Below, piece by piece: positions 1 to 63,317 of a stretch of DNA of 64,000 bases. Position numbers and translations under genes: made by a program. Source of the stretch: Devosia sp. A8/3-2 (lineage in GTDB: Bacteria > Pseudomonadota > Alphaproteobacteria > Rhizobiales > Devosiaceae); the NCBI GenBank assembly GCA_025452255.1, contig CP104974.1:2210156-2274155 (forward strand), in the 5' to 3' direction. The stretch's first letter is position 1, and each line of letters opens with the position of its first letter. The notes under the pieces were generated by a model. The model searched no databases. It was given only the letters and a program-made list of their open reading frames with translations, and was not told the DNA's origin.

Positions 1-1008
1 ATGGCCGCGGTCTTGTCGTCAAAGGTCAGCGACAGGCGGCCCGCGCTATCGTCGAGCGCCGAGATGAAGTCGGTGGTGCGGTTGTCGACCAACGAGACGA
101 AATTCTCCGTCCGCTCGCCAAAGGCATTGGTCAGCGTATTGCCGGCCGTTTCCAGCGCCTAGGTCAGATTGCCGCCGCTTTCCACGATGGTCCCGGAAAT
201 GCGCTGGCTGATCATGTCGAGATCGAACACCGGGCCCGTATGGCTCTCAGTGATGGCCTCGCACGCGCTCGGTATTGGTGAGCACGCTTTGCGCTGGCTG
301 GCCAATTCGGCGATCAGCGCACGCATGCGTGATTCATTGTCCGAATAGGTGCGTTCGAGTGCGGTAACCTCGTTGTGGATCATCACTTCGAGTTCGCCGG
401 CGCGCGAGAGGGCGCGTTCCAGCCCATCGCCCAGCGCATTGACTTCGCGGCGCACGGCCCGGCCCACCGAGGCGACCTTGTCGGCGGCGGTGACTTCGGG
501 CTCGGCCGGGCAGAATGGCGGCTCGGGTGATCGAGGACGCGGCATTGCGCAGGTCCTGGGCGCGGCGGAACAGGGTGGCGACGCCGAAAAAGCCCAATAC
601 GGGCAGGATCATGATGGCCGCGAGCGCGATGAAATCGATGCTGCTGGCAAACTGGCCGAAATTGCTCAGCTGGCTGCCATAGCGCAGATAGCCGGCCGCG
701 CCCGTAGCCACGAGCCAGATGACCGAGAGCGCCAGCGCTACCCAAGTGGGGGCCGAGGATGAACGGCTCTGCAGCGTATAAAGCAGCTTGGAGGTGGGGA
801 ATCGATCGTCATTGGCCACGGCGCCGGCCTGTTGGGCGATCTTGTCCGCAGCGCGCAGGCGCTCGGAACGCGCAGGATTGGCCGCGCGCTTTTCCGGGGC
901 TTTTTCCGGCGTACTGTCGAGATTGAACACCGAGTCCTTGAGGGCGTCTTCAACGGCAGAAAAAGCCGAGGCGGCGGGATCGTTTGGGGGTGTCGAATTC
1001 TGCGCCAT
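1..1008 (-). CDS. Growth pole ring (GPR)-like giant membrane protein, N-terminal part
   Basis: The gene runs off the left edge, so only about the first 335 residues are present. It starts at ATG 1006-1008. A charged N-terminus is followed by two hydrophobic segments (about residues 85-105 and 125-150), then a long alpha-helical, Ala/Glu/Arg-rich region (ADKVASVGRAVRREVNALGD, HNEVTALERTYSDNESRMRA). This matches the N-terminus of the apolipoprotein-like GPR proteins of Rhizobiales, known in Agrobacterium to organise polar growth. The reading frame is broken near 500-540 and 240-300, and a TAG at 159-161 interrupts an otherwise continuous frame; its CCTAGG context would read Gln if it were CCCAGG. 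I treat these as consensus errors. Family assignment is from memory of the sequence pattern. Confidence 0.7.
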
Positions 1009-1361
1009 ACTCTTTACTACTCTCGCGTCGACTTCACAGCGATAGGGCGGCAAACTGGCGGTGTGTTAACCCCCAACCCGTTTCCGGGCCGATGGTCAAA
1101 TGGAAACAATTCGATGCAAATGCCGCGCATTATTTCCGCACCACCGCTGCCGCGCTGGTTCAAAATCCATACATACATTCAATTTTACTCAAACCGAACG
1201 CTTTCTTACCCAAAGGTTAATTTTTTGGGGAGAACGAGGGGCATCAAAAACGGCAAAGAACGGCGAAGATGTGGCTTAATTGCCTGTTCATCCGGCGCTT
1301 CTAAGCTTGTCCAGCGGTTTTGCTCCTGTGGGCTCCGTAGCCGCTTTTGTTAAGGAGTTCG
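1009..1361. other. Divergent intergenic region between GPR and Hpt genes
   Basis: About 350 bases between two divergent genes. It is richer in A and T than its surroundings (notably 1155-1235) and must hold both promoters. Isolated TTAA half-sites occur, but no spaced CtrA box, tRNA or convincing hairpin was seen. An AAGGAG ribosome-binding site at 1352-1357 belongs to the Hpt gene. Confidence 0.5.
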
Positions 1362-1762
1362 ATGGATGGCCCAGCGGTTTCCCGCGTTCTGACAGCGCCA
1401 CCCCTGTCCCGGTTCTGCGCCGGGCGCGCCCCATCGATCTGGTGCATCTGGCCAAGCAATGCACGGGCGATGCAGCGCTGGAACACGAAGTGCTGCGCCT
1501 CTTCGACACCACGATCAAAATCTATCTCGCGCGCCTGCTGGCTGCGACGGCTCCCGACCAGTGCTGTTTACCCTTCACACGATCAAAGGCGCCGCCGGCA
1601 GTGGGCGCCTTCACCATTGCCGACTCGGCCAAGGCGATGGAGGCGGATGCCGGGGCAGGACGGGCCATCAATTCCGAACAGATCGAAGACCTCAAAATGG
1701 CGGTGGAGGAAGTCAGCGTGTTCATTGCCGACGTGCTGAGCAAGGATTTGAGCTGGGAGTAG
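1362..1762 (+). CDS. Hpt (histidine phosphotransfer) domain protein
   Basis: Small single-domain protein of about 133 residues. The downstream part reads [18 protein letters not shown] and [10 protein letters not shown] in one frame, whereas the phosphorylatable histidine motif [10 protein letters not shown] is legible only in the +1 frame around 1573-1603. One base lost near 1565 and two near 1606 would restore a continuous Hpt domain ([13 protein letters not shown]). Taken at face value the current frame lacks the active-site His. The start is chosen because AAGGAG at 1352-1357 lies 4 bases before ATG 1362; that ATG is in a different frame from the body, implying another indel near 1370-1420. 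It probably relays phosphoryl groups in a two-component phosphorelay; its partner is unknown. Confidence 0.6.
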
Positions 1763-1871
1763 GGGGCTAAAACACCCCCATTTGACCACCACCCTTGCCT
1801 TCCCCTATAGAGCGCCCAATATTTGTTGCGCTTCGCAGCCCGCCGCGCCGGGCGCCCAAAGGCAAGTTTCC

Positions 1872-3474
1872 ATGAGCATGTCCCTCGCCGCCGAGACACC
1901 GTCTCGCGCCATCACTGAGCCCTATCGCACCCGCCGGACCTTTGCGATCATCTCGCACCCGGACGCGGGCAAGACCACGCTGACCGAGCGGCTACTTGCC
2001 GCTGCCGGCGCGATCCAGTCTGCCGGCGCGGTGCGCGGCAAGGCCGGCACGCGCTCGACCCGTTCGGACTGGATGGAAATGGAGCAGCAGCGCGGCATTT
2101 CCATCACCTCCTCGGTGATGACCTTTGACTATGACGGGCTGACGCTGAACCTGCTCGACACCCCCGGCCACTCGGACTTTTCCGAGGATACCTATCGCAC
2201 GCTGACCGCCGTCGACGCCGCCATCATGGTGATCGACGCCGCCAAGGGTATCGAAGCGCAGACTCTCAAGCTGTTCGAAGTCTGCCGCCTGCGCTGACAT
2301 CCCGATCATCACCTTCATCAATAAGGTCGACCGCGAGGGTCTGTCGCCGCTCGAGCTGATCGATGAAATCCGGGGCAAGTTGGCGCTCGACCTCACTCCG
2401 GTGCTGTGGCCCATCGGGCAGGGCGTCGATTTCCACGGTTATCTCGATCTGCTGGAAAAGCGCGTGCTGAGCCCCCGGGGCAAGCCGATTGCCGAATACA
2501 ATGCCATCGAAGACCTGCTCGACAACGATAGTCTCATCGAAGACCCTGTCTTCATGACGGCGCTCGAGACCCTCGAAATGGCCACGGCCATGCTGCCGCC
2601 CTTTGATCTTGAAACCTTCCATGCCGGGCATCTTAGCCCCGTGCTGTTCGGCTCTGCCCTCAAGGGCATTGGCGTGGCCGAACTGCTGCGCACGCTGGGC
2701 GAATGGGGCCCCGAGCCGCGTCCGCAGCCCGCCATTCCTGCGCCCATCGAGCCCGCCGACAAAAAGGTCACCGGGTTCGTGTTCAAGGTGCAGGCCAATA
2801 TGGACGCCAATCACCGCGACCGTATCGCCTTTGTCCGCCTCTGCTCGGGCACATTCACCCGCGGCATGCGGCTGAAGAATGTGCGCTCGGGCAAGGACAT
2901 GGCCGTTTCCAACCCCATGTTCTTCTTCGGCAATGACCGCGAACTGGCCGAGCAGGCCGTTGCCGGCGACATTGTCGGCATCCCGAACCACGGCACCCTT
3001 TCGGTGGGCGATACCCTCACCGAAGGCGCGACGATCAATGTGACGGGCATTCCGAACTTCGCCCCCGAAATCATCCGCCGCGTGCGCCTGACCGATCACA
3101 TGAAGACCAAGCAGATGGCCAAGGCGCTGTCTGACCTGTCCGAAGAAGGTGTTACCCGTGTGTTCCGCCGGGTCGTTGGTGCGGATTGGATCGTGGGCGT
3201 GGTTGGCCAGCTGCAGCTCGAAGTGCTGTCCTCACGCGTCGCCAAGGAATATGGCGTGCCGATCACCTTTGAGAGCCTCAATTACGAAGTCGCCCGCTGG
3301 ATTGAGAGCGATGATCCCAAGGAATTGGAACGCTTCATCGCCGCTCAGAAGATGAACATTGCCGAAGACCGCACCGGCTCCCCGGTGTTCCTCGCGCAAA
3401 ACGCTCGGTGGGCCGACCGCGCCAAGCAGGATTTCCCGAAAATCCGCTTCCTCACCACGAAGGAACGGCATTGA
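1872..3474 (+). CDS. prfC: Peptide chain release factor 3
   Basis: Class II release-factor GTPase that recycles RF1/RF2 from the ribosome. The G1 P-loop HPDAGKTT lies at residues 29-36, the G3 motif DTPGHSDF follows, and the G4 motif NKVD lies just after a frameshift. At 2296 an extra T (GCGC-T-GACATC) creates a stop after VCRLR; removing it continues directly into [15 protein letters not shown]. The corrected length is about 534 residues, normal for RF3. ATG 1872 is preferred over an upstream in-frame ATG because the N-terminus then matches family length. The stop overlaps the TTG start of the next gene. Confidence 0.9.
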
Positions 3475-4641
3475 CCGACCGTATCGAAGAGTTCCTGAGC
3501 GCGGTGAAATCGGCCTTTGCCGGCAACACGCTGGTCAAGCTCAAGCTGGCTGGCTATCACGGCGGCGAAGCCGATCTCAAATCCATCGACGTCAAGAAGA
3601 TCGTCGCCAAGGGGGTGGAGAAGTTCAGCTTCACCTTCCATTACAAAACGCGCGACATCATCAAAAACCAGATCCAGCCCGAGGCCCCGGGCAATCTGCG
3701 CATTGCGCTCCACGACGAGTTCCGCAGCGCCCAGCTTGCCACCACCGAGTTCGACATGAGCTTTGAGCGCAATGGCGACAAAATCCGCCTCAAGCGCAGT
3801 GAAGTCGTCGGCCGCGAAGCCCCCTCGACCGACCACAACCGCGCCAAGAACCGCCCGCTGGCCGAGACCAATAAGCCCTATCTGCATGCCCTTGGCATCA
3901 CTGGCAAGGATGGCGTCGTGCGCAACGACGCGCAGGATAAGTTCCGCCAGATCAACAAGATGGTCGAAATCTTTGCCCCCTTGATTCAGGCGATCAAGGC
4001 CGAAAAGCCCCGCATCGTCGATATGGGCGCGGGCAAGGGGTATCTGGATTTCGCGCTCTACGATTACCTCGCCAATGTCGCCAATCGCCCCGCCGAGATC
4101 GTCGGCGTCGAAATGCGCGACAAGCTGGTTGAGGATGGCAATGCCACCGCCGCCCAGTCGGGTTTTGATGGCCTGAGCTTCCAGCCCGGCACCATTCTCG
4201 ACCACGACGCGACCGGCGCGGATGCTGTCATTGCCCTGCATGCGTGCGACACGGCCACCGACGACGCCATTTTCAAGGGCATCGCTGCTGGCGCCTCCCT
4301 CATCGCCGTTGCCCCCTGCTGCCACAAGCAAATCCGCCGCCAGATGGAAGCCGGCAGGCCCGAGGACACGCTATCGAACCTGCTCCGCCACGGCATCTTC
4401 ATGGAGCGCCGAGGCCGAAATGGTCACCGACGCCCTGCGCGCTTTATCTTGAGCTGAACGGCTACCGCACCAAGGTGTTCGAGTTCGTCTCCGACGCGCA
4501 CACGCCCAAGAACAATCTGATCGTCGCCGAAAAGACGGCCGCGTCGGCCACGACCGCGCCGCCATCCTCAAGCAGATCGCTGATACCAAGGCCATGTTCG
4601 GCATCGAGCGACATTATCTTGAGGGGCTGCTCGGGCTTTAG
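3471..4641 (+). CDS. Class I SAM-dependent methyltransferase
   Basis: Begins at TTG 3471, overlapping the prfC stop (ATTGA) with AAGGA just upstream, so translational coupling is likely. An N-terminal unassigned domain of about 120 residues precedes a Rossmann methyltransferase fold with motif I IVDMGAGKGYLDF (near residue 180) and a later IALHACDTATD and APCCHKQIR segment typical of the Methyltransf_32/METTL25-like group. The frame breaks near 4411 (CCAGG read as CCGAGG), near 4430 (GCGCGC shortened) and near 4545. The corrected protein ends LEGLLGL at the TAG of 4639-4641, about 390 residues. Substrate unknown. Confidence 0.75.
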
Positions 4642-4775
4642 CTCTTCACCTCTCCCTTTGGGGGAGAGGTCGGCGCATCGCGCCGGGTGAGGGGGCCTTT
4701 GTTGGGGTGGTGCTGGAAAAGGCCCCTCACCCGCCCCAAGAGGGTCGACCTCTCCCCCAAGGGAGAAGTGAAGAG
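4642..4775. repeat. Intergenic inverted repeat (REP-like, family C)
   Basis: Two outer arms, CTCTTCACCTCTCCCTTTGG at the left and the complementary CCAAGGGAGAAGTGAAGAG at the right, enclose an inner pair built on GGTGAGGGGGCC and GGCCCCTCACC. The whole element can fold into one long imperfect hairpin of about 130 bases. It lies directly after the methyltransferase stop and may also act as a terminator. Confidence 0.8.
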
Positions 4776-4890
4776 GGCCCGCCTGGCACGTAGCGCCCTT
4801 GCTGGCGCAATCCCGCAATGCCATCCACAGGGTTCCTAAACTGCCACCCAGCCTCTATATCCTTGGTGAACAGCAAGCCCTTAGAGACCA

Positions 4891-5211
4891 ATGACCAAGA
4901 TCACTTTCGTCCAGCAGGACGGCACGCGTATCGAAACCGAAGGCCAGAATGGCGCCACCGTGATGGAAACTGCCATCATGAACGGCATTCCCGGCATTGT
5001 TGCCGAATGCGGCGGCGCCTGCACCTGCGCCACCTGCCATGTCTATGTCGATGACGCTCGGACCGAAACGGTCGGCGCCCCCTCGAACATGGAAGAAGAC
5101 ATGCTCGACTTCGCCTTCGACGTGAAAGCCAGCAGCCGGTTGTCGTGCCAGATCAAGGTCAAGGACGAGCTGGACGGCCTCGTCGTCCACGTGCCGAGCC
5201 GGCAGGGCTAA
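4891..5211 (+). CDS. [2Fe-2S] ferredoxin, adrenodoxin type
   Basis: A 106-residue ferredoxin. The cluster ligands are visible as CGGACTCATC (Cys-X5-Cys-X2-Cys, about residues 40-48) with the fourth Cys in SRLSCQIK near residue 86. It carries electrons between a reductase and a redox enzyme in the cytoplasm. A second ferredoxin of the same type lies at 11462 and a ferredoxin-NADP reductase at 10343, with CysI between them. Start ATG 4891 matches family length. No frameshift is seen. Confidence 0.92.
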   Translation: MTKITFVQQDGTRIETEGQNGATVMETAIMNGIPGIVAECGGACTCATCHVYVDDARTETVGAPSNMEEDMLDFAFDVKASSRLSCQIKVKDELDGLVVHVPSRQG

Positions 5212-5267: not shown

Positions 5268-5361
5268 CCACCGTTCTCCCTCGGACTTGATCCGAGGGCC
5301 GCTCTCAGCGCGGCAGGAATACGAGAAGGCTCTCGGATCAAGTCCGAGGGAGACACGGTGG
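5268..5361. repeat. Intergenic inverted repeat (REP-like, family B)
   Basis: Nearly perfect arms CTCGGACTTGATCCGAG at left and CTCGGATCAAGTCCGAG at right, extended outward by CCACCGT and CACGGTGG. Each arm is itself a short palindrome. It is distinct in sequence from the other repeat families in this window. Confidence 0.85.
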
Positions 5362-5572
5362 GCGTTAGGCGATCCAGTCCCTGCCGTATCCAGAGAGTAA
5401 AATTTTCTCCGCATCCCCGACGCAAAGATTCATTTAGCGGGTTTGTGGTATTCCCATTGTCGGCGTTCTGCGCCACGCCTTGCTAGGGAAATATAAAAGC
5501 TATTGAATTTCAACGCCTTGTGTATTCGGGCCGGAGTGGATTATTTTGCCCGCCACTCACAACAGGGTTCCA
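5362..5572 (+). promoter_or_regulatory. Leader/promoter region of the cysG operon
   Basis: About 210 bases with markedly higher A+T (5395-5545) than the flanking coding DNA, upstream of the sulfate-assimilation operon. A local GGCGTTCTGCGCC hairpin (5461-5473) precedes an AT-rich tract at 5486-5510. It probably contains the promoter and an operator for sulfur control. I could not match it to a defined riboswitch or to a known regulator site. Confidence 0.4.
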
Positions 5573-6966
5573 ATGGGTTATCTCAACACATTTCCGTTGA
5601 GCTACAAGGTACAGGGTCTGCGCATCGTCATCGTCGGCGGTGGTGAAGAAGCCCTAAACAAAGCCCGGCTGGTGACTAAGACGACCGCTCAGGTCGTGAT
5701 TATATCCCAACAGATCGAAGCCGATTTTTCCGGTCTCACTGTCACCCTGATCGAGCGCGATTTCATCGCCGCTGATCTCGACAATACCGCTCTGGTTTTC
5801 GTCGCCGAAGAGGGCGCTGCCGCCGACCGCGCCAAGGCCGAAGCCCGCGCCCGTGGCATCCCGCTCAATGTGGTCGATGTCCCCGCCGAATGCGATTTCT
5901 ACACGCCCTCCATCGTCGATCGCGCGCCGCTCACCGTCGCCATCTCCACCGAAGGCGATGCGCCGGTTCTAGCCCGTCTCGTCCGCGCCCGGATCGAGGC
6001 GATGCTGTCGCCCCGCATTGGCAAAATTGCCAGCCTCGCCGGTGGTTTGCGCCACAAGGTTGAAAGCCTGATTCACGACGGCGCCGCCCGCCGCCGCTTC
6101 TATGAGGCGCTGGTGACCTCGCCTGCCATCGAAGCCGCCGAAGCCGCAGGGCAGGGCGCCAGTGCCGCTGAAACCTTGCTGGCCCAGCACGCCGATACCG
6201 CCCACGCAACTGGCGTGGTCTGGCTGATCGGCGCCGGCCCGGGTTCGGAAGACCTGCTCACCCTGCGCGCCCAGCGGCTGCTGCAGGAAGCCGATGTCAT
6301 CGTGCATGATCAACTCGTGCCCGATGCCGTGGTGCAGATGGGGCGCCGCGATGCCGAGCAGATTTCCGTCGGCAAGGCCAAGGGCCATCACAGCTTCAGC
6401 CGGGCCCAGATCAACACCCTGATCGTTCGCCTCGCCAAGGAGGGCAAAAGGTTGCCCGCCTCAAATCCGGCGACCCGATGATTTTCGGCCGCGCCGGCGA
6501 GGAAATCGCCGCCCTGCGCAAGGCTGGCGTGCCCTATCAGATCGTGCCCGGCGTCAGCGCAGCACTCGCCGCTGCTGCCGACACCGCCACCCCGGTCACC
6601 CTGCGCAAAGTTTCCAGCGGCTTCGTCATGGCCACTGCCCATGGCGCTGACGATAGCGACCTGACCCATTGGGCCGCGCTCGCCCAGTCCGGCCTGACGC
6701 TGGCGCTCTATATGGGCAAGTCCATCGCGCCTGAAGTCGCCGCCCGCCTGATCGAGCAGGGCGCGAGCGCCGCGCTGCCCATCGGCATCGTGGTCAATGC
6801 GGGCCGGGCCGACAAATCCACCTATTCCGGGACACTGGGAACGCTAGCGGCCAACGCCGTGGCGTTTGCCGATGGTCCGGCAATCATTTTCGTAGGCGAA
6901 GCCGTTGAGGCCGGTGATTGGGCAGATGCTGCCCAGCTCACCGGTATGAGCTTCAAAGTAGCGTAG
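5573..6966 (+). CDS. cysG: Siroheme synthase (multifunctional CysG)
   Basis: Makes siroheme for CysI from uroporphyrinogen III. The N-terminal half is a precorrin-2 dehydrogenase/ferrochelatase with Rossmann motif IVIVGGGEEA near residue 22. The C-terminal half is uroporphyrinogen-III C-methyltransferase with GAGPGSEDLLTLRA, GDPMIFGRAGEE and VPGVSAALAAAA. The frame breaks near 6450, where one G of an AAAAGGG run appears lost; restoring it joins EGK to RVARLKSGDP. ATG 5573 is chosen over an upstream TTG (5546) by alignment length. It is the first gene of a tight operon, 4 bases before the DUF2849 gene. Confidence 0.92.
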
Positions 6967-6970: not shown

Positions 6971-7294
6971 ATGGAAATTCTGACTGGCAATGAGCTGACA
7001 TCGGGCGGGACGGTTTATCTCGACGCCCACAATAACTGGGTCGAGGACCTGCAAGCCGCCCGGCTCTTCGGCAAGGAAGAGACGGCCGAGCGCGATGCCG
7101 CTTTGGTGGCCACCAAGGCCAGTGGCCGCGTCATTAGCCTTGAAATCGAGGAAGTGAGCCGGGCGGACGGCGTTATCGTCCCCAAGCGCTTGCGCGAACG
7201 TATTCGGGCGGCGGGCCCCACCGCGCCCCTGACATTGAACGGCGAGATTTACGACCGCCAGCATCTGGATGAGGACGGTCATGTATCGATATGA
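6971..7294 (+). CDS. DUF2849 protein of the sulfite reduction operon
   Basis: A 107-residue protein (MEILTGNELTSGGTVYLDAH at its start) matching the DUF2849 family, which in alphaproteobacteria is regularly encoded between cysG and cysI. No catalytic motif is evident. Its 3' end overlaps the start of cysI by 14 bases, pointing to coupled translation and to a role with sulfite reductase, perhaps in assembly or electron delivery (inference). Confidence 0.85.
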   Translation: MEILTGNELTSGGTVYLDAHNNWVEDLQAARLFGKEETAERDAALVATKASGRVISLEIEEVSRADGVIVPKRLRERIRAAGPTAPLTLNGEIYDRQHLDEDGHVSI

Positions 7295-8938
7295 CGAATT
7301 CGACGCGGCTTTCGTTGCGGGCCGCACCAGCCAATTTGCCGATCAGGTCAAGCGCCGCCTCTCAGGCGAGCTGAGCGAAGATCAGTTCCGCCCTCTGCGG
7401 CTGATGAACGGGCTCTATCTGCAACTGCACGCCTATATGCTGCGCATCGCCGTTCCCTATGGCACGCTGTCGAGCAAGCAGATGCGCAAGTTTGCCCATA
7501 TCGCCCGCACCTATGATCGTGGCTATGGCCACTTCACCACACGGCAGAACATCCAGTTCAACTGGCCCAAGCTCAAGGATATTCCGGTGATCCCGGAAGA
7601 GCTGGCCTCGGTGGAAATGCATGCCATCCAGACCTCGGGCAATTGCATCCGCAATGTCACCGCCGACCATTTCGCCGGCGCTGCTGCCGACGAGATCATC
7701 GATCCGCGCCCGATTGCCGAAATCCTGCGCCAGTGGTCGAGCCTGCATCCCGAATTCAGCTATCTGCCGCGCAAGTTCAAGATCGCCATGACCGGCGCGC
7801 CGAACGATCGTGCCGCCATTCGCTTCCACGATATCGGCCTGCAAGCTGCGACCAATGCTGCTGGCGAAATCGGCTGGGAAGTCTGGGTCGGCGGTGGCCT
7901 TGGCCGCACGCCGATGATCGGCAAGCTGATCAACAGCTTCGTGCCCAATGAGCATCTGCTGGCCTATCTGGAATCCATCATGCGGGTCTACAACCGCTAT
8001 GGCCGCCACGATAACAAGTACAAGGCGCGCATCAAGATTCTGGTGCACGAAGAAGGCCTTGAGACCATCAAGGGCCGGGTCGAGGCCGAATTCGCCGAAG
8101 TGCGCGGGGGTGTGTTGACCCTGCCGTCCGAGGAAGTGGACCGCATCACGGCCTATTTCGCTCCGCCGCAATTCAAGGCCCAGCCCGCCACCAAGATCGA
8201 TGTGGCCTATCAGTCCATCATCGACCCCGCCTATGGCCGCTGGCTCGACCACAATATCAATTCGCACCGCGAAGCCGGTTATGCCTCGGTCACCATCTCC
8301 CTCAAGCCCGTTGGCGGCGCGCCGGGCGATGCCACCGACAAGCAGATGGACGACATTGCCGATATCGCCGAGCGCTATGCGTTCGACGAATTGCGCGTCA
8401 CCCACGAGCAGAACTCGGTCCTGCCGCATGTCGCCATTGCGGACCTGCGCACGGTCTATGACGCGCTGGTCGCCACGGGCCTTGCCGAAGGCAATACGGG
8501 CCTGATCACCGACATGATCTGCTGCCACGGCCTCGATTTCTGCGCCTCGGCCAATGCCCGCTCGATCCCCATCGCGCAGGAAATCTCGCGCAAATTTGCC
8601 GAACCCAAGCGGCAGGCCGAAATCGGCGATCTCAAGATCAAGATTTCCGGCTGCATCAATGCCTGCGGCCACCACCATGTCGGCCATATCGGCATTCTGG
8701 GCGTCGAGAAAAAGGGCGGCGAGCTCTATCAGATCACCACGGGCGGCGACGCCACCGAGCACGCCTCTGTGGGCAAGATCATCGGCCCCGGCTTTGAGGC
8801 CGATGCCGTGCCCGGCGCCATCAGAAACGCTGGTCGATACCTATATCGCCAAGCGCAAGCGCCGACGAAAGCTTCATCGCCGCCTATCGCCGCTCGGGCG
8901 AGGCGCCGTTCAAGGAGGCCCTCTATGGGACTGCCTAA
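7281..8938 (+). CDS. cysI: Sulfite reductase hemoprotein (ferredoxin-type CysI)
   Basis: Reduces sulfite to sulfide with siroheme and a [4Fe-4S] cluster. The cluster/siroheme cysteines are C415 and C421 (CCHGLDFC) and C458 and C462 (GCINACGHHH). ATG 7281 is chosen because MYRYDEFD is the usual start. Two single-base insertions near the end (about 8822, ATCGAA read as ATCAGAA; about 8872, extra A) shift the frame. Corrected, the protein ends KEALYGTA at the TAA of 8936-8938, about 552 residues. Without correction it appears to read into cysH. No CysJ flavoprotein is nearby, so ferredoxin is the likely electron donor. Confidence 0.92.
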
Positions 8939-10199
8939 GATGCTGCAAACCCAGCCGGCGCATGACAAGCTGCGCGCCCTCGGCATTCTTGCCCTCAACG
9001 GCATGTTCGACGAGATGGACGCCGTCGCCGTGCTGCGGCAGGCGGCCCATGACATCCTGCCGGGCGATCTGGCGGTTGTCTCGTCCTTCGGCGCGGATTC
9101 GGCGGTGCTGCTGCATCTCGTGGCGCAGGTCGATCCGAGCCTGCCGGTCTATTTCCTCGAAACCGGCAAGCATTTCCATGAAACGCTCGATTATGTCGAA
9201 ACGCTCAAAAAGCATCTCGGCCTGATCAATGTGCATGCCCTCCATCCCAATTCCGAGGATGTGAAGCGGTTCGACCCGACCGGCGATCTCTGGGAAACCG
9301 ACCCTGATTCTTGCTGCCATATTCGCAAGACCGAGCCGCTGGAGCCGGTCACCGAGCAATATGGCGGCTGGGTCACGGGCCGCAAACGCTTCCAGACCAA
9401 GGAACGCGGCGTGCTGCCGCATTTCGAGCTGACGAGCGACGATCGCATCAAGGTCAATCCGCTGGCCTATTTCACCGATGCCGATGTCAACCAATACAAG
9501 ATCGACCACGGCTTGCCCGAGCACCCGCTCTTCGCTAAGGGCTACAAGTCGATCGGCTGCGCGCCCTGCACCTCGGTGGTTGCCGAGGGCGAGGACCAGC
9601 GTGCCGGCCGGTGGCGCGGCCTCAACAAAAAAGAGTGCGGCATCCATTTCGATTTCAACGGAGCGATCGCCAAGCCGATGACTGCCGCGACCAAACACAA
9701 TCTGTGGAAGGATGGCGCCTTCATCGCTGACCCGTTCCATGAATGGGCCGAAGGCGACGACCCCGCGAGTGTCAGCTACAAGCATGTGCCGCTGGCCGTG
9801 TTCTCGGCCAATCGCGATGCCGTGCTGGCCAATCCGCATCCGCTGGGCCTGCTGATCGTTCCGGGCGACCGGATCGAGGACGCCGAGGCTGATCTCGCCC
9901 GCTTTGCCTCCATCGCCATCAAATTCCCCGCCTTTACCGATGGCCGCGGCTATTCGGTGGGCCGGCTGCTGGCCGAGCGCTATGGATATGGCAATGAAAT
10001 CCGGGCGATAGGCGATGTGCTTCAGGATCAGATTCCGCTGATGCGCCGCTGCGGCTTCAATGCCTTCGTCGTGTCGCATGAGCCGACAAGGCAAGCCCTG
10101 ATCGAGAACCGCCTGCCAGAAGTGGCGCTGTTCTACCAGCCAGTGGGCATTACTGAAGTCCCCGCCGGCACGCGCCCCTTCCTTCGCCGCGCCCATTGA
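8925..10199 (+). CDS. cysH: Assimilatory APS reductase (CysH) fused to a DUF934 domain
   Basis: About 424 residues. The first 240 are a CysH-type reductase with the [4Fe-4S] cysteines C130, C131 (SCCHIRK) and C212, C215 (GCAPC) and catalytic C238 (ECGIHF). Those cluster cysteines indicate adenylylsulfate rather than PAPS as substrate. After a linker of about 20 residues the protein continues in frame as a DUF934 domain (LWKDGAFIADPF to the end), usually a separate gene. AAGGAGG at 8912-8918 is 6 bases before ATG 8925, which decides that start over ATG 8940; it overlaps the end of cysI. Whether the fusion is natural or comes from a lost stop cannot be decided from this sequence alone. Confidence 0.88.
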   Translation: MGLPKMLQTQPAHDKLRALGILALNGMFDEMDAVAVLRQAAHDILPGDLAVVSSFGADSAVLLHLVAQVDPSLPVYFLETGKHFHETLDYVETLKKHLGLINVHALHPNSEDVKRFDPTGDLWETDPDSCCHIRKTEPLEPVTEQYGGWVTGRKRFQTKERGVLPHFELTSDDRIKVNPLAYFTDADVNQYKIDHGLPEHPLFAKGYKSIGCAPCTSVVAEGEDQRAGRWRGLNKKECGIHFDFNGAIAKPMTAATKHNLWKDGAFIADPFHEWAEGDDPASVSYKHVPLAVFSANRDAVLANPHPLGLLIVPGDRIEDAEADLARFASIAIKFPAFTDGRGYSVGRLLAERYGYGNEIRAIGDVLQDQIPLMRRCGFNAFVVSHEPTRQALIENRLPEVALFYQPVGITEVPAGTRPFLRRAH

Positions 10200-19973: not shown

Positions 19974-21748
19974 ATGGGCATTTACGGGGCTCTTTCCAGT
20001 GCGGTTACCGGTCTGCGGGCGCAGGCGCATGCGCTGGAGAATATCTCCGGCAACATCGCCAATTCCCAGACCACCGGCTACAAGCGCATCGAGACCGACT
20101 TCCTGGATCTGATCCCCGACGCGCCCGTCAAGCGCCAGTGCCCGGCGCCGTGCTGGCGCAGTCGCGCGGCACCAATGACATCAAGGGCGACATCAAGACG
20201 GTGTCGAACGAGACCTTCATTGCGCTCAATTCCAACGGCTTCTTCGTGGTCGAGCCCAAGAACGGGCAGGCTGATGGCGATGGCACCTTTGCCGGCACCA
20301 ATTTCTATACCCGCCGCGGCGATTTCGAGATCGACAAGGACGGCCTGCTGGTCAACGGCGCTGGCTATTACCTCAAGGGTCTGGCGATTGATCCTGCCAC
20401 CGGCAACGTCTCGGGCTCGGCCCCCGCAGTCATCAAGCTGTCCAATGCCTTCCTGCCCGCCCAGCAGACCACGCGCATCAATTACCGAGCCAACCTGCCG
20501 CAATTGCCCAAGACCGATGCCTATAAGGCCTCGGTGCCCAATAGCGAGCTCATGCGAGCGGGCGATTATCTGCCGAGCACCTTTACCCCGGCGCGGTCCA
20601 CTTCGACCAGGGTATTCACCACCGATCCGACCGATCTGGTGGGCGAGTCCCCTGACCATTGCGATCAGCGGCACCGCCTTCAACTACAATTTCTACTCCG
20701 CCGCTGCCGGCGCTCCGCCCGCCAATAACGCCTCCAACATGTACATCAACACCGATGGCAAGACGGTCGCGCAAGTGCTGGCAGAAGTGCAGACCCATAT
20801 GCAGGGTCGCCCGAATGCGGCTGGCTCAACCGTCGGCATTGCGACCGTCGCTCCCGATGCCGGCAAACTGCAGATCACCATGCCCGCCAATTCGGGTTTC
20901 ACTATGAGCGCTTCGACCAGCGCCGGGCTTTCGACCTCGTTCACCACCACGCCGCCAATCAGCTCCGTGCCCAATGGCACGCCAGTGAACGCGATCTCCG
21001 CCAATCAGAATGCGCAATTCCTCACCAACACGATCCCGGCCGGCTCCATCACGGTTTACGCCCAGAACGGCGCCCCGGCCGAGGTGACCATGCGCTGGGC
21101 CAAGGTCGATAGCGCTACCAGCACCCCGCCCGGCACCGACACCGGCACCTCTACTACATGTCCAACGGCAATGCCGCCGGTACGGAGACGCAGTGGACCC
21201 GCGTCAACGAAACCTTCCAGTTCGCCGCCAATGGCTCGCTGGCAGCTCCTACGGGCGGCGCGACCACGCTGACCGGCCTCAATATCAACGGCGTTGGCGT
21301 TGGCGATGTCGAATTGCGCTACGACACCAACGGCTTGACGCAGTTCGCCGATGTGAACGGCAAGGCGAATACCTCGACGCTGAACCAGAACGGCTATGGC
21401 GCCGGCGAATTCGTCTCCGTCGCCATCAATGACAATGGCCGGGTGGTCGCCACCTATTCCAATGGCGAACGTATCGACATGGCGCAGGTGGTGACGGCCA
21501 ATTTCAACGCCATCAACTCGCTCAAGCGCCTCGATGGCGGTGTGTTCGCGTCAACATCGGAATCGGGCGAGGCCATTCTGGACCTCACCGGCCGGGGCAT
21601 TATGGGCGGCGCGCTCGAGGCGTCCAATACCGATATTTCTGACGAATTCACCAAGCTGATCGTGACCCAGCAGGCCTATGCCGCCAGCACGCGCATCGTC
21701 AGCGCGGCCGACAAGATGCTGCAGGAAGCCCTCAACATGATCCGCTAG
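19974..21748 (+). CDS. flgE: Flagellar hook protein FlgE
   Basis: About 590 residues. The N-terminal rod/hook motif SAVTGLRAQAHALENISGNI and C-terminal QQAYAASTRIVSAADKMLQE form the conserved D0 coiled coils; a variable, low-complexity Ser/Thr/Asn-rich middle forms the outer hook. Start ATG 19974 has AGGAG 6 bases upstream. Frameshifts occur near 20137 (CCAGG read as CCAG), 20650 and 21153 (lost C). Secreted by the flagellar export apparatus. Preceded by a sigma-54 promoter and followed by flgK and flgL. Confidence 0.92.
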
Positions 21749-28250: not shown

Positions 28251-28583
28251 TCAGGCCATTAAGTCTTTCAGCCGCGCCATGGATTCGGGGGAATGGTCGC
28301 GGAGCCGATGCGCTGATACAGCTCGGCCAGCGTCTGTGGCGTTGGGGCAAGGGCGCCAGCAATCACTGCTGCCGCGAACATGGCAGAAGAATCGCGCGCA
28401 GGTGCCTCCTGTTCGCGATCGCTGGAGCGCTCCTCGCGGTCCTGGTTCGGCTTGGCATTCTTGGGGGCAGGTGGCGCGCTATAGGGCAGCACGGTGCGTT
28501 CTGCCCGGCGCGGCGCGGTAGCGATAGTCCGTAATACTGGTGTGACTCGGGCCAATCGGCTCGGGTGCGATTGCAGTGACCAT
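28251..28583 (-). CDS. Small hypothetical protein in flagellar cluster
   Basis: About 110 residues after correction, starting MVTAIAPEPIGPSHTSITDY and ending ESMARLKDLMA at TGA 28251-28253. Indels near 28523 (GGCGAACG read as GGCAGAACG) and 28289 break it. The middle is rich in Pro, Glu, Arg and Asp, likely disordered, with a hydrophobic stretch SAMFAAAVIAGALAP. I do not recognise the family. It sits between flagellin and the flgN-flgJ-flgI operon with its own terminator, so a flagellar accessory role is possible but unproven. Confidence 0.5.
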
Positions 28584-28696: not shown

Positions 28697-29163
28697 CTAC
28701 ATCGACCGATTAACGGCAATCCCCCGCGCCGAGCTCGCCGGATCGGACGCCACCGCGCCAGCCCGGCCATAAGTCTTGGCCTTGTTCTGCTGCCCAACGA
28801 TCTGCGCCACATCGGTCAGCAGATCCTCGGTCACAGTGCGGGCCGTTGCCAGCACACGCAAATTCTCGGCCATTTGTGTGGCCGGGCTTTCATGCCCCTG
28901 TTTGAGTCGGTCGATGGCCTTGGGCGCCTCCGCACGCAGGCGATCGCCCCGGCGCTGCACGGCACGGGCAAAGCCCACATAATCCTGCGCCAGCCGTGTC
29001 TTGTCCGGCGTCAGCGTGCTGGCCTGCTTGATATGGCCGGTGCGCAGCAGCACGGTTTCTGGTTCATGATATCGACAAGCGCGGCGAGGGCGACTTCGGC
29101 CATCTGGCACAGATCGTCGGCCGGCAGGCTGTCGAGGGCGGCGAGGCGGGCTGCGGCGGTCAT
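28697..29163 (-). CDS. FlgN-like flagellar export chaperone
   Basis: About 155 residues, predicted all-helical. The segment ETVLLRTGHIKQASTLTPDK followed by TRLAQDYVGFARAVQRRG fits the FlgN pattern (Glu-X2-Leu-Arg then Leu and Lys at fixed spacing). FlgN chaperones FlgK and FlgL. A lost G at a CCAGG site near 29065 breaks the frame. Start ATG 29163 lies 2 bases after the stop of the FlgJ-like gene, so the two are co-translated. Confidence 0.7.
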
Positions 29164-29165
29164 GC

Positions 29166-29485
29166 TCAATAGGCTCCCTTGGGGATTGTCATTCTGTTCT
29201 GGGAATTGGCGGCTTCCTGCAAGGTCAGCAGGTCGCCCATCAGCTGGTCGGCAATGCCGAGCCCGCCATTTTGCGCCATGGCATTGGCGAGTTGTTCCGA
29301 TTGCATGGAGCGCCGGTTTCCTCGCCAAAGCCGCCGCCGAAACCGTTCTCGTTCTTGACGCTTTCGAACATGGTTTTGGTCAGGGTGTTGAGGAACACGC
29401 CCTCGAATTCCTCGGCCTGCTGGCGCACCTTGGGGACTCGGCTGGCGCTGAGGGTCGAACCGGGCTTGGCGATGGCCTCGACCAT
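29166..29485 (-). CDS. Rod-binding protein (FlgJ N-domain type)
   Basis: About 107 residues. VRQQAEEFEGVFLNTLTKTM and GGLGIADQLMGDLLTLQEAA mark the rod-capping domain of FlgJ without the muramidase half, the usual alphaproteobacterial form. The frame shift near 29314 (ACCTGGCGC read as ACCGGCGC) is at a CCTGG site. Its start overlaps the flgI stop by one base (TAATG). Confidence 0.85.
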
Positions 29486-47075: not shown

Positions 47076-47859
47076 TTAGCGAAGTTGGCTGGTGGCCTGC
47101 ATCATCGTGTCGGCGCCAGAGATGATGCGTGCATTCATCTCGTAGGCGCTGCTGCGGCGATGAGGTCGGCGATTTCGGTGACCGAATTGACATTGGCCAT
47201 TTCCGAGATAGTTCTGCAGCAGATTGCCGGTGCCATCCCGATTGGGCAATTCCACTGGGCCGGGCCGCTGGCGGCGGTTTCGGTAAACAGGTTATCGCCC
47301 AGCGATTCCGAGCCCGATTTGTTGACGAAGCGGGCGAGCTGCAGCTGGCCCAGTTCGGTGGGGTTGGTGTCGTTGTTGAGATAGGCTTCGACCACGCCAT
47401 CGGCCGAGATCGATACCGAGGTGGCGGTGCCCGGAATGGTGATATTGGGCTCGATGGCATAGCCGCTCAGAATTGACCAGCGTGCCCTCGGCGCTGCGCT
47501 CGAACGAGCCGTCGCGGGTATAGCCGGTGCGGCCATCGGGCATGGTGACCATGAAGAAGCCTTCGCCGCGGATGGCGACGTCGAGCTCGCGTTCGGTCAT
47601 GTTCACATTGCCTCGGCTCATCACGCGAGGCGTGGAGACGGTGCGCACGCCCGAGCCGATCTCGAGCCCGGCCGGCAGCATGGTGCCCCGGTCCGAGGTT
47701 TGCGACCCTGCACGGCTGATCTGCTGGTACAGCAGGTCCCGGAATTCGGCGCTGGCGCTTGTAGCCAGTGGTGCGCATGTTGGCGATATTGTTGGAAATG
47801 ACTTCGACGTTGCGTTCCTGAGCGCTCATGCCGGTCGATGCGATGTAGAGAGCTTTCAT
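47076..47859 (-). CDS. flgG: Distal rod protein FlgG
   Basis: About 261 residues. Starts [20 protein letters not shown] with [12 protein letters not shown]; the C-terminus reads [20 protein letters not shown]. Indels near 47762, 47470 (TTCGAG read as TTCTGAG), 47208 (CTCGAA read as CTCGGAA) and 47150 break the frame. Stop TAA 47076-47078. Confidence 0.92.
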
Positions 47860-58223: not shown

Positions 58224-58299
58224 CACTGACCCCCGCGCGGGAATGGCGCGGGGCGAGTAGAATGGGCGCGTGGCGACGATCTGCCCGACAGGACCTGCA

Positions 58300-58566
58300 A
58301 TGACCGGCGCCGAAGTTCTCGACATTTCCACCGATGGCATCTGGACGCTGATTATCGTCGCCGCGCCGATGATGATCGTGGGCCTGCTGGTCGGCGTGGT
58401 CATCGCCCTGTTCCGAGCCCTGACGCAAATTCAGGAACAGACCCCGGTCTTCGTGCCCAAGATCATCGCCATTTTCATCACCATGCTGATCACCTTGCCA
58501 TTCTCGGGCGCCACCATGGGCGGCTATATGAACCGGGTGATCGACATGATTATCGTGGGCGGCTGA
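58300..58566 (+). CDS. fliQ: Flagellar export apparatus protein FliQ
   Basis: An 88-residue protein with two membrane helices (IIVAAPMMIVGLLVGVVIAL and IIAIFITMLITLPFSGATMG). ATG 58300 chosen by family length. Its TGA shares a base with the fliR ATG (TGATGA). Confidence 0.94.
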   Translation: MTGAEVLDISTDGIWTLIIVAAPMMIVGLLVGVVIALFRALTQIQEQTPVFVPKIIAIFITMLITLPFSGATMGGYMNRVIDMIIVGG

Positions 58567-59309
58567 TGATCACGATCGGGCTGGATTGGCTGCCCAATAC
58601 CGCCTTTGTCTATCTGCTGCTGTTTTCCCGCATCGGTGCCATCCTGATGCTGATGCCTGCGCTGGGCGAAACCATGATCCCGGCGCGTATGCGGCTGGCT
58701 TTTGCCCTCGCCTTCACCCCGGTGGTCTATCCGCTGCTGGCGCCCAACCTGCCCACCATGCCGGTCGATTTCATGGGCATTGTCGGGCTGATCTTCCATG
58801 AATTGGCCATTGGCCTCATGTTGGGCGCCATTGCCCGCATCACCGTTATGGCGACGCAAGTTGCAGGTGCGGTCATCGCCTTCCAGTCCGGGTTGAGCGC
58901 CGCCATGGCCGCCGATCCGACCCGTGCGGGCGTGCAGGGCGCGGTGTTCGGCAGCTTTCTGTCCTTCCTCGGCGTGACGCTGATCTTTGCCACCGACCTG
59001 CATCACGTCGCATTGGCCGCGACCTATGACAGCTATGTAGTGTTCGGCGTCGACGCGCCCCTGATGTTCGACGACGCTGCGCAATTGGCGCTGCGCACCG
59101 TCGCCAGCGCCTTTTCCATCGGCATCCAGATGTCGGCGCCGTTCATCGTTTTTGGCCTCGTCTTCAACTCGGGTGCCGGCATCCTCGCCCGTCTGATGCC
59201 GGCGCTGCAGGTGTTTTTCCTGCTGATGCCGGCCAACGTGATGGTCGGGCTGGTGCTGTTTGCCTTGCTGCTGACCATGATGATGGGGTGGTACATCACG
59301 GGATTCTGA
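58566..59309 (+). CDS. fliR: Flagellar export apparatus protein FliR
   Basis: A 247-residue membrane protein; LLLFSRIGAILMLMPALGET and VAGAVIAFQSGLSAAMAADP are FliR signatures. Forms the export gate with FliP and FliQ. No frameshift. Confidence 0.94.
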   Translation: MITIGLDWLPNTAFVYLLLFSRIGAILMLMPALGETMIPARMRLAFALAFTPVVYPLLAPNLPTMPVDFMGIVGLIFHELAIGLMLGAIARITVMATQVAGAVIAFQSGLSAAMAADPTRAGVQGAVFGSFLSFLGVTLIFATDLHHVALAATYDSYVVFGVDAPLMFDDAAQLALRTVASAFSIGIQMSAPFIVFGLVFNSGAGILARLMPALQVFFLLMPANVMVGLVLFALLLTMMMGWYITGF

Positions 59310-59337
59310 AAATCATCTGGCGATATGGAGGGGCTAA

Positions 59338-60418
59338 GTGTCAGACGAAGCGCCTGAGCAGGCCAGTAAAACTGAGGACCCCTCCCAGAAAAAACTGGAG
59401 GACGCCCATAAGAAGGGTGATGTCGCCAAGAGCCGGAGGTAACCACCGGTTCATGCTGCTGGGCTCGGCCACCATTTTCGCCATGATGGCGCCCTCGACC
59501 AGCGCCAGCCTGATGCAATCGCTCAAGGTGGTGATGACCAATGCCGATCAATTCGAGCTGGGCGGCTCGGGCTTTGCGGTATTCTTCAACGGGCTGGCGC
59601 TGGCGCTGCTCGGCACCATTCTCGTGCCGCTGGCCATCCTGACCTTCTGCGGGGTCGCCGCCAATCTCATCCAGCATCGGCCCCTGATCTCGACCGAACC
59701 GATCACCCCGAAATTCTCCAAGATTTCCCCGCTCGCCGGCTTCAAGCGGCTGTTTTCGACGGAATCCTCGGTCAATTTCGGCAAGGGCCTGCTCAAGATC
59801 TGCATCGTGGGCACGGTGCTGTTCTACGTGGTCTGGCCCGAACGCGACCGGCTCGACACCATGATGACGGCCGATCCGCTCATCATCCCGGCCGATTTCC
59901 GGGAGATCGGCCTCAAGATTTTCGGCGCCACGCTGGCCGTGCTGACCATCATCGCGCTGGCCGATTACATCTATGTCCGCCAGAAATGGTGGAAGCGGCA
60001 GATGATGACGGTTCAGGAAACCCACGACGAATATAAGCAGATGGAAGGCGACCCCAAGATCAAGGGCCGCATCCGCCAGATGCGACAGGATCGCGCCTGC
60101 AAGCGCATGATGGCCTCGGTACCCGATGCCACCGTGGTGATTACCAACCCCACCCACTTTGCCGTCGCCCTCAAATACGACCGCTCGATGGGCGCCCTGC
60201 AATGCGTCGCCAAAGGCGCCGATGCCGTGGCGCTGCGCATCCGCGAGGTGGCCAAGGAAAACGATGTGCCCATCGTCGAGAATCCCCCACTGGCCCGCGC
60301 CCTGTTTGCCAGCGTCGATATCGACGACGTCATTCTCGGCGAACATTTCCGAGCCGTCGCCGAAGTCATCGGCTTCGTCATGCGCCTCAAGAAACCGAGC
60401 GGCTGGAAGGCGGGGTAG
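59338..60418 (+). CDS. flhB: Flagellar export switch protein FlhB
   Basis: About 360 residues. Starts GTG 59338 with GGAGG upstream; N-terminus EDPSQKKLEDAHKKGDVAKS. Four membrane segments follow; the cytoplasmic part has the autocleavage motif NPTH (VVITNPTHFAVALKY). Two deletions only 17 bases apart break the frame: CCAGG at about 59432 and CCTGG at about 59449 both read CCGG; restored text is KSQEVTTWFMLL. Controls export specificity. Confidence 0.93.
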
Positions 60419-60460
60419 GGCGCCGACGAAACGGTGGTGCGTTACGCAACCTATCCCACC

Positions 60461-60571
60461 CACCGTGTCATCCCGGCGTAGGCCGGGATCCGAGTCCGTG
60501 GCGATCCGCAACCATCCAGCGCCGGGATGGCCTTCAACATGGATTCCGGCCTCCGCCGGAATGACGCCGTG
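60461..60571. repeat. Intergenic inverted repeat
   Basis: GTGTCATCCCGGCGTAGGCC at left and GGCCTCCGCCGGAATGACGC at right, with inner GGCCGGGATCC and GGATTCCGGCC. A palindromic repeat of the general form common in alphaproteobacterial intergenic DNA. Confidence 0.75.
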
Positions 60572-60747
60572 ATTGTTTGAGGCGCGGAGCACCCTGCAGC
60601 CAAAAGGCTCGGTGTCACACTAAGTGGCGCTTTTTCACGTCGGTGTTTATAACTTTGTTCACCCTCCCAACGGGTCGGTTCCTTTGCTAGACCTGTCGCA
60701 GGCCCTGATTCTGCCCCGACTCACCGTCATCCGGAGCACCACGACCC

Positions 60748-63317
60748 ATGGCATCGACGCCGCTCGGCGAGGACACCTATCCCGATCCACTTCTGGCCTC
60801 CGAGCGCAGCAGCGCCGGGCTGTGGCGCGTCGTGGCCCCGGGCGTGGCCCCGGTGGCGTTGGCCGTCGCCTTTTCTTTCTTCAGCGACCGGATCCCGATG
60901 GACTCGGTGATGACCTTTGTCGGCATATTGGCCGTGGTCGGCGTGTTCTGCCTGTTCGGGCTGGCCGCGGGCCTGTTCCGCTTTGCCGGCAATGAGGAAC
61001 GCCGCACCATTTCCGGCGCCGTGGTCGATAGCCTGCCATTCGGAGCCGTCGTGTCCGATCGCGACGGCAAGATTTCCTACGTCAACGCCCACTATGGCAA
61101 TTTCAGTGGCGCGCTGAACAATGGGCTGCCGGTGGGCGTGCCGCGCCTGTTTGCCGGCCAGTCCGACGCCAGTGAGGCCATTTACCGCCTGTCCCGCGCC
61201 GCCAAGGATGGCCGCAGTGCTGTCGAGGATATTCGCCTCGTCGGTGGGCTGGGCGGCTCGCAGGCCGAGAGCGCGCCCCTTCTGGTATCGCGTCGCCGTG
61301 CGCCCCTTGCCCGAGAGCGACGAAACCAAGAAGCCGCTGGTCATCTGGTCGGTGGAAGACATTACCCGCGACCGCGACAACAATGAGAGCGCCTTCCGCG
61401 ACCTGCAGCGCGCCATCGATTATCTCGATCATTCCCCGGCCGGCTTCTTCTCGGCCGATGCGCATGGCCGCATCCAATATCTCAATTCGACGCTATCCGA
61501 TTGGCTCGGCTATGATCTGGCCGAGTTCAATGCCGGCCATCTGGGCCTGTCGGATATCGTGCGTGGCGATGGCGCCACCCTGTTGATGCGCGGCCGTGGC
61601 GATGGCGAGATTTCCACCGAAATCATCGATATCGACTCGGTGCGCCGCAATGGCACCAGCCTGCCGGTGCGCCTGCTGCATCGTGCCGCCCGCATGGCCG
61701 ATGGCGAACTGGGCGAGACGCGCACCCCGGTGCTCGATATGTCCAGCGCCCCCGATACCGAGGAAGAGCTGCGGGCCGCCGAAGTGCGCTTCTCGCGCTT
61801 CTTTAACGACACGCCCTTTGCCATTGCAACGCTCGACGGCGAAGGCCGCATCATCCGCACCAATGCTCCTTTCGGGCGCATCTTCAAATGGTCGGGCGAG
61901 GAAAAGAGCCTCGAAATGCAGCCGCTGAGCGAGCTGATCGGGGAGGGGAGCCGCGACAAGTTTGCCCGCGCCATTGGCGACGCCACTGCCAATCGCTCGG
62001 AAATCGAGCCGGTCGATGCCCTGCTCAATGCCGAGGGCGACCATGCCGTGCGGCTTTATCTGTCGGCGTCCGAGCTCAGCGAAGGCTCGGCCGAGCAGGT
62101 CAATGTCTATGCCCTCGACATGACCGACCAGCGCAAGCTCGAAGCCCAGTTCGCCCAGAGCCAGAAAATGCAGGCCGTGGGCCAGCTGGCCGGCGGGGTG
62201 GCGCACGACTTCAACAATCTGCTGACCGCCATTATCGGCTTTTCCGATCTGCTGCTGCTGAAGCACAAGCCGGGCGATCCCTCGTTCAGCGAATTGATGC
62301 AGATCAAGCAGAATGCCAATCGCGCAGCGGGTCTCACCCGACAATTGCTAGCCTTCTCCCGCCGCCAGACCCTGCGTCCGCAAGTGCTCGAACTGCCGCT
62401 GATCGTCGATGACCTGACTGTGCTGCTCAAGCGCATGATCGGCGAGAAGAACACGCTCACCGTTGAGCATGGCCGCAATATCTGGCCGGTTCGCGCCGAT
62501 GTCGTGCAGCTCGAACAGGTCATCATTAACCTCGTGGTCAATGCCCGTGACGCCATGCCCAATGGCGGCGCCATCACCATCCGCACTTCCAATGTTGAGC
62601 AGGCCGATGCCGAGCGGCTGACCTTCGAGGGTATGGTGCCGGCCGATTTCGTGCTCATTGATGTGCAGGATACCGGCACCGGCATGAGCCAGGACGTCAT
62701 CGCCAAGATTTTCGAGCCCTTCTTCACCACCAAGGAATTGGGCAAGGGCACGGGCTCGGGGCCTGTCGACGGTCTATGGCATCGTCAAGCAGACCGAGGG
62801 TTATATCTATCCGGTCTCGACCGTTGGCGTTGGCACCACGTTCAAGATTTTCCTGCCCCGCCATGTGCCCAATGAGAACGAAGTGGCCGGCAAGGTCGCC
62901 GTCGCCGCCCCGGCACGTGACCTGACCGGTCAGGAGCGCATCCTGCTGGTGGAAGACGAGGAAAGCGTGCGCGCCTTCTCCGCTCGCGCCCTGCGTGCCA
63001 CGGGCTATGAAGTGTTCGAGGCCGATGGCGGCGAAGAAGCGCTCGAAGTGCTCGAAGATATCGACTTCAAGATCGATCTGATGATTTCTGACGTCGTGAT
63101 GCCGGAAATGGACGGGCCGAGCCTGCTCAAGCATGTGCGCAAGCAAATGCCCGATCTCAAGGTGATTTTCGTCTCCGGCTATGCCGAGGAAAGCGTACGC
63201 CGCGATATCGAGGATGATCAGAGCGTGGACTTCCTGCCCAAGCCCTATTCGCTCGATCAGATCAATTCCAAGGTCAAGGAAGTGCTGCAGCGGCTGGGCA
63301 AGGGCGAAACCAATTGA
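60748..63317 (+). CDS. cckA: Cell-cycle hybrid histidine kinase CckA
   Basis: About 855 residues. Two N-terminal membrane helices (residues about 35-75), two PAS-type domains (starting near 100 and 230, plus RFFNDTPFAIATLDGEGRII), HisKA with the phosphorylated His near 486 (GGVAHDFNNLLTAIIGFS), HATPase (VVNARDAMPNGGAITIRTS; DTGTGMS) and a C-terminal receiver with the phospho-Asp near 780 (ISDVVMPEMDG) and VSGYAEESVRRDIED. The order is that of CckA, which drives CtrA phosphorylation via ChpT. Frameshifts near 61278 and 62757 (CCTGG site) split it. CtrA boxes occur in this same window. Confidence 0.88.

Follow-up and report, generated by a model that had tools for sequence, protein, structure and literature searches.

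Why does a 64,000-nucleotide stretch of the Devosia sp. A8/3-2 genome, here called the window, carry so many interrupted reading frames, and do they record gene decay or misread DNA? The window is taken from the main replicon (G000:C1, 4.04 Mb; positions 2210156-2274155) of a two-contig genome assigned to the genus Devosia, whose second replicon (G000:C2) measures 515 kb. A preliminary description, made from the letters of the window alone, had held that the frameshifts concentrate at CCWGG (CCAGG or CCTGG) and CGA sites and had proposed a Dcm-like CCWGG methylase and a second modification. We compared the genome with its relatives and found that the word CCWGG is itself almost erased. We are highly confident that the losses are a systematic long-read consensus misreading of methylated sites, left in place by the lack of short-read polishing. 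In the lines set apart below, coordinates are those of the window and strand is given where one was assigned.

1-64000: main-replicon window with CCWGG almost erased (0.42 sites per kb, where three relatives have 3.8-3.9; 14 of 219 aligned sites intact)

The three relatives are G006, G015 and G010. The closest of those searched is the sister species G006, which is 93% identical in DNA across window positions 7269-10199 and collinear with the window at a mean identity of 91% over 58.9 kb aligned; for the genome, identity to G006 is about 90% in the parts that align. Alignments shorter than 400 bases or below 84% identity were discarded. A first sample of 464 kb, with 298 kb aligned to G006, served for counting the products of CCAGG sites (n = 1086), and a second of 604 kb, with 394 kb aligned, for comparing CCWGG (n = 1426) with CCSGG (n = 1370). 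These samples may include a few repeats: the aligned coverage of stretches A and B grew as G006 sequence was added. Substitution counts contain natural divergence, for which CCSGG is the control.

Within the window, 205 of the 219 G006 sites were changed, nearly all by substitution (natural divergence included). This main signal was absent from the preliminary description, whose CCWGG inference was right and understated. Two 200 kb stretches of the main replicon and 40 kb sampled from the second one gave similar densities, 0.38-0.41 per kb. In the 394 kb sample, 83 of 1426 CCWGG sites were intact, compared with 865 of 1370 CCSGG sites; the other CCWGG sites were substituted (1222) or held a deletion (79) or an insertion (42). 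Dividing the CCWGG intact rate by the CCSGG rate implies, by our own arithmetic, that about nine sites in ten were misread. Five other five-base patterns were 51-66% intact (first sample).

Word counts single out the same motif. CCAGG/CCTGG is the most depleted 5-mer (189 occurrences vs 1683 scaled from G006; 464 kb), the next seven overlap CCAGG, and the eight most depleted 6-mers as well as the 16 listed 7-mers contain CCAGG or CCTGG. The first depleted 6-mer unrelated to CCWGG is CCGCGA (476 vs 647); its loss may reflect deletions of the GCGCGC type or another error context. Other mild losers among words of four to seven bases are CGCGA (1707 vs 1966) and CCCCCC (25 vs 70). Gapped words were scanned too; apart from CC/GG, any depletion was weak (z about -5.5 to -4.5), several of the words containing CAG or CTG, and CA(N9)TG stood at 5268 vs 5814. 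Over the whole genome, CCWGGCC occurs 269 times, against 5316-6339 in G004, G006, G010 and G015, and the same pattern read in reverse, which serves as a control, is close to its usual frequency (1664 vs 1730-2278 in the same four). This genome alone is depleted in CCWGGCC among 75 of the genus; no other fell below its control count, the lowest ratio, judged by eye, being that of G064 (1036 vs 916). The erasure is genome-wide, specific to CCWGG, and the outstanding feature of this genome.

The changes have a characteristic form. Mismatch rates at the five positions of CCAGG were 0.08, 0.09, 0.58, 0.36 and 0.18, compared with 0.098 overall (first sample), and the commonest products on the CCAGG strand (n = 1086) were CCGGG (299), CCGAG (196), CCAGA (73) and CCGTG (63). 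The next base matters: CCWGG was intact at 48 of 292 sites before A and at 35 of 1134 before other bases. Some outcomes were lopsided by strand, the change of the first base from C to T being counted 30 and 54 times vs 15 and 34 for the mirror images.

The erasure reaches deep into the proteins. With long open frames of G006 (at least 200 codons) taken as coding in place of annotation, CTG codons touching CCWGG were nonsynonymous in 52% of 469 cases, compared with 3.9% of 4448 elsewhere. The corresponding values were 57.5% of 379 vs 10.4% of 2943 for CAG, and 66.7% of 177 vs 10.5% of 912 for TGG. Leading outcomes at CTG and CAG were Leu to Pro (129), Gln to Arg (111 through CGG and 60 through CGA) and Leu to Ser (72). 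In our judgement the erasure is not evolutionary, because no lineage would be expected to carry such changes throughout its proteins.

In 309 kb of coding alignment we tallied insertions and deletions (indels): 278 short insertions, and short deletions that together removed 369 bases. CCWGG sites, extended by one flanking base, cover 2.6% of coding bases, yet they account for 30 of the insertions and 56 of the deleted bases. Other contexts hit were GCGCGC (40 of 361), AAAAAA (9 of 31) and CCCCCC (8 of 34). Homopolymer and heteropolymer errors are described as nanopore error classes (PMC12392509), and the homopolymer-run and heteropolymer indels seen here fit that platform.

Could the basecaller simply be weak at CCWGG, with its bases unmodified? 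The homopolymer and GCGCGC errors do show it to be imperfect. However, CCSGG, one letter different, is normal here, and the loss is seen in none of the 74 other assemblies of the genus (platforms unstated). Moreover, the account of Dcm motifs in Wick et al. (2019; PMC6591954) has default nanopore models failing at Dcm-methylated CCWGG: Dcm motifs held about 70% of the consensus errors those models made (about 0.4% of bases), a failing not shared by models that had learned from such DNA. We consider a weakness at unmodified CCWGG highly improbable.

A candidate enzyme for the methylation was found on the second replicon. One strand of G000:C2 encodes, at about 146.8-150.0 kb, a C5-cytosine methylase split into two pieces, a Vsr mismatch endonuclease and an EcoRII-type nuclease. 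EcoRII cuts CCWGG, and the pairing of dcm with vsr is known from E. coli. The nuclease carries both EcoRII domains, EcoRII-N (PF09217, 9.6e-46) and EcoRII-C (PF09019, 5e-61), and matches the solved EcoRII (PDB 1na6) at 3.6e-97 over residues 5-402. As for EcoRII, a C5 methylase is close by on the same strand; here, in contrast, the Vsr gene stands between methylase and nuclease, an HNH gene follows, and the methylase is divided. The search for a CCWGG methyltransferase that the preliminary description had called for thus yields this methylase (PF00145), beside Vsr and the EcoRII nuclease, as the candidate cognate enzyme. G004 has an unbroken copy, with which the two pieces share 77% and 87% identity. 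The protein encoded by the HNH gene (L125:15611-16273, minus strand) resembles methyl-directed Type IV nucleases (PADLOC mREase_IV, 4.1e-20), odd company for a methylating system.

The EcoRII-type nuclease had no match in G006, G010 or G015. Homologues of the methylase occur in five of the 75 genomes of the genus, this one included, and the four other carriers are not depleted in CCWGGCC (G004, 5459; G083, 5074; G080, 2327; G049, 3570). Their methylases are 64-100% identical to the G004 copy, those of G083, G080 and G049 standing at 64-68%, and their target need not be CCWGG. G004, with both methylase and nuclease, has 3.84 CCWGG per kb in 120 kb. Hence the gene alone does not erase the word, whereas misreading of methylated DNA would. 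The methylase region of G004 (L194; G004:C1 581584-585588) has, perhaps by chance, one CCWGG in the 2.7 kb aligned here, against 3.8 per kb in the G004 sample.

These observations also bear on the idea that the sites were truly lost in evolution, either through selection by an EcoRII nuclease against its own site or through deamination of 5-methylcytosine (5mC). The nuclease is indeed encoded, and products of the deamination type on one or other strand do occur (CTAGG 10, CCAAG 49). But those 59 of 1086 compare with 299 CCGGG and 196 CCGAG, codons for Leu, Gln and Trp, at which a loss alters the amino acid, are heavily hit too, and the four other genomes with a methylase homologue, G004 with its nuclease among them, keep the word. 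We give true evolutionary loss hardly any chance. Tested against products, codons and the undepleted carriers, restriction avoidance, 5mC deamination and true pseudogenisation were all judged unlikely.

The misreading of methylated sites would come about as follows. The EcoRII-type system on the 515 kb replicon would methylate cytosine in CCWGG on both strands. A long-read assembly, most likely nanopore, would have been made without short-read polishing, and a basecaller model untrained on the modification would misread the site, chiefly at the AGG of the strand that reads CCAGG, turning CCAGG into CCGGG, CCGAG or CCGTG or losing or gaining a base. Being systematic, the misreading would survive into the consensus at roughly nine of every ten sites. 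Ordinary long-read indels, at A runs, C runs, GCGCGC and CGAA, would supply the remaining frameshifts. Genome-wide depletion, damaged proteins and the predicted methylase, Vsr and nuclease on the second replicon all support the Dcm-like CCWGG methylase proposed in the preliminary description.

Several points weigh against this explanation. That the cell marks CCAGG/CCTGG with methyl groups, which it very probably does, and that the platform was most likely nanopore, are both things we infer. Outside CCWGG lie 248 of the 278 coding insertions and 313 of the 369 deleted bases, with GCGCGC and runs of A or C standing out. Intact CCWGG sites make up about 6% (83 of 1426), a share that fits high, not total, misreading. 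The methylase is itself broken in the assembly, by a frame change near an A run and by TGA stops, one of them at a C[T]GA-type place (extra base in brackets); these breaks look like the assembly errors seen elsewhere in the genome, and the activity of the methylase rests on assuming that they are errors. Its presumed target, CCWGG, is taken from the adjoining EcoRII nuclease and from the erasure of CCWGG.

Do the frameshifts, then, mark true pseudogenes in a genome undergoing decay? Many reading frames are interrupted, and the genome is listed as 84% complete, compared with 98-100% in 17 of 18 relatives of the same genus. Against this, contexts prone to error (CCWGG, runs, GCGCGC, CGAA) hold an excess of the short coding indels, and the window remains collinear with G006, to which the genome is so similar where aligned. 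Genuine decay strikes us as extremely improbable. Many of the broken genes are best read as sequencing mistakes, the largest group of which falls on CCAGG/CCTGG; the living cell presumably has intact genes, and the assembly is not evidence of real gene decay.

Alignment to the relatives located individual frame breaks in the window at CCWGG sites:

20137-20141: frame break where G006, G015 and G010 have CCWGG
22280: frame break where G006 and G010 have CCWGG and G015 is without it
29060-29065: frame break, CCWGG in all three relatives
29314-29315: frame break, CCWGG in all three relatives
59432-59449: two frame breaks 13 bases apart, CCWGG at each in all three relatives

Altogether, 12 of the 16 coordinates at which the preliminary description had placed an altered CCWGG have this motif within 14 bases in at least one of the three relatives (8 of 15 aligned coordinates for G006, 10 of 14 for G015, 12 of 14 for G010). 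Coordinates 160, 33787 and 42487 have it in no aligned relative, and 38691 falls outside the alignments. The reading of the TAG at 160 as an altered CCCAGG is therefore unsupported, there being no CCWGG at that place in any aligned relative. Both CCWGG and CGA contexts do exceed chance among the frameshifts, but "concentrate" was too strong a word, since most coding indels lie outside CCWGG. In the intergenic DNA of the window, an inverted repeat was seen by eye at 5276-5355 (TCGGACTTGATCCGAGG and its complement about 50 bases on), and a similar pair at about 4640-4780; both are perhaps REP-like.

The extra bases reported within CGA raise the question of a second modification. Alignment gave the following examples, the last two of them missing from the preliminary description:

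2294-2296: extra base in CGA relative to G006
8822: extra base in CGAA relative to G006
47468-47470: extra base in CGAA relative to G006
47956, minus strand: extra base in CGAATC, which holds the CcrM site GANTC
60711, minus strand: extra base in CGAATC, which holds the CcrM site GANTC

At nine of the 13 CGA coordinates proposed, G006 has CGA and the window one extra base between C and G. Of the remaining four, 18954, 19213 and 24648 have an extra base where G006 differs, and 28523 has no indel, the nearest being at 28501. Three of the nine carry T, and the T insertions at 2296, 17768 and 49261 fit CGAA on neither strand, so that CGAA, a narrower word than CGA, leaves part of the nine unaccounted for. 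In general, inserted T was found in CGAC (11 cases), CGAG (12), CGAA (8) and CGAT (7), many of these being TCGA sites seen from the opposite strand. We rejected the idea that CGA or TCGA is modified throughout, since 1995 of 2480 TCGA sites are intact (first sample).

Away from CCWGG, the most frequent one-base insertion is an A between the C and the G of CGAA, with C[A]GAA accounting for 27 of the 66 isolated cases. Among sites otherwise conserved over six bases in the 394 kb sample, A was inserted at 55 of 2866 CGAA, 11 of 3045 CGAG, 0 of 3300 CGAC and 0 of 4072 CGAT sites. A looser filter gave 63 of 3181 CGAA sites (about 2%), with insertions at 11 of 48 CGAATC sites (23%) vs 52 of the 3133 remaining CGAA sites (Fisher p 9.5e-10); under the six-base filter CGAATC stood at 11 of 43. 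When two further bases were fixed around the inserted CGAA sites, CGAATC came out clearly ahead. The C[A]GAA insertions were also strand-biased on the contig in that sample (46 minus, 17 plus, p 3.5e-4), likely a bias of consensus calling.

CGAATC contains GAATC, a site of CcrM, which recognizes GANTC. Such a second modification would be either N6-methyladenine laid at GANTC by CcrM or a mark from a Type ISP enzyme on the second replicon. Besides the excess of insertions at CGAATC, GANTC has the highest coding indel rate among the 16 palindromes of the form XYNYX (20 of 344; next AANTT, 9 of 406), and indels of any kind occurred at 5 of 136 GAATC, 10 of 111 GATTC, 3 of 54 GACTC and 2 of 43 GAGTC coding sites; the five at the 97 GACTC and GAGTC sites count for CcrM as the cause. 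A CcrM homologue with N6_N4_Mtase and RAMA domains is encoded at C1:3815037 (3.9e-133 to the solved CcrMI), and the text on GANTC in a study of Brucella assemblies links that motif with CcrM and reports two potential methylation-related errors there (PMC12392509). The predicted Type ISP enzyme (971 aa; Type_ISP_C, ISP_coupler and N6_Mtase domains) lies at L127:637-3552, near 298.5-301.4 kb of G000:C2.

In contrast, the C[A]GA insertion was found at none of 149 sites in CGACTC (0 of 32), CGAGTC (0 of 37) and CGATTC (0 of 80), GAATC without a preceding C had 5 indels in 195 sites, and 52 of the 63 C[A]GAA insertions fall outside CGAATC, these insertions fitting a graded context of G or T before and C two bases after. 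The second motif is not CGA at large, and only CGAATC is strongly affected; plain basecaller context error could explain the remaining CGA insertions. A second modification as the source is possible, if somewhat doubtful, and what stands of the earlier proposal is the group of CGAATC insertions within a CcrM site. Two further observations concern methylases: another, short N6_Mtase match was located some 9 kb away from the Type ISP enzyme, and a second methylase of N6_N4 type (L130:1438-2445, minus strand; G000:C1 near 3457 kb) adjoins, by eye, a helicase-like frame.

The phenomenon is already known; what we add is a new instance together with its probable methylase. The Dcm account of Wick et al. 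(PMC6591954) agrees with ours in the motif, CCAGG/CCTGG, in the concentration of errors there and in their extent, about 0.4% of bases compared with 0.3-0.4% here by our own arithmetic (3.6 sites per kb, nine in ten misread). It differs in concerning Klebsiella, Dcm methylation and an Illumina truth, whereas we deal with an alphaproteobacterium, an EcoRII-type system and an assembly only. The Modpolish work of Chiou et al. (2023; PMC10687267), as far as its text on Listeria goes, likewise traces strain-specific quality loss to motif errors, partly to a methyltransferase-encoding system, with mismatches as the main error; there, in contrast, the motifs were GCAGC and GCTGG, and the errors were removed by amplification in a whole-genome amplification test. 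Lohde et al. (2024; PMC11610573) attribute A/G and T/C ambiguity to nearby methylation, a confusion of the same kind as the leading change of A to G here; CCWGG does not appear in their table of motifs. Among the titles listed on nanopore errors at CcrM/GANTC sites, on EcoRII or restriction-modification in Devosia and on nanopore methylation in Devosia, none reports this case, although titles are not proof.

Used as it stands, this genome would yield false pseudogenes, false Leu to Pro and Gln to Arg changes and an overlarge distance to its relatives. By extrapolation (3.6 CCWGG per kb, about nine in ten misread; our own arithmetic and not a count), some 15,000 sites would be wrong in 4.55 Mb. 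We suggest, tentatively and with the odds rather against it, that an unpolished public assembly may serve as a record of the methylome, in which a word erased relative to a sister species gives away the CCWGG specificity with no need of signal data, and the weaker C[A]GAA insertions are the trace of a further modification, made by CcrM at GAATC or by the Type ISP enzyme. A test of word erasure, which needs one related genome, could flag such public assemblies and name the methylated word together with a candidate methylase.

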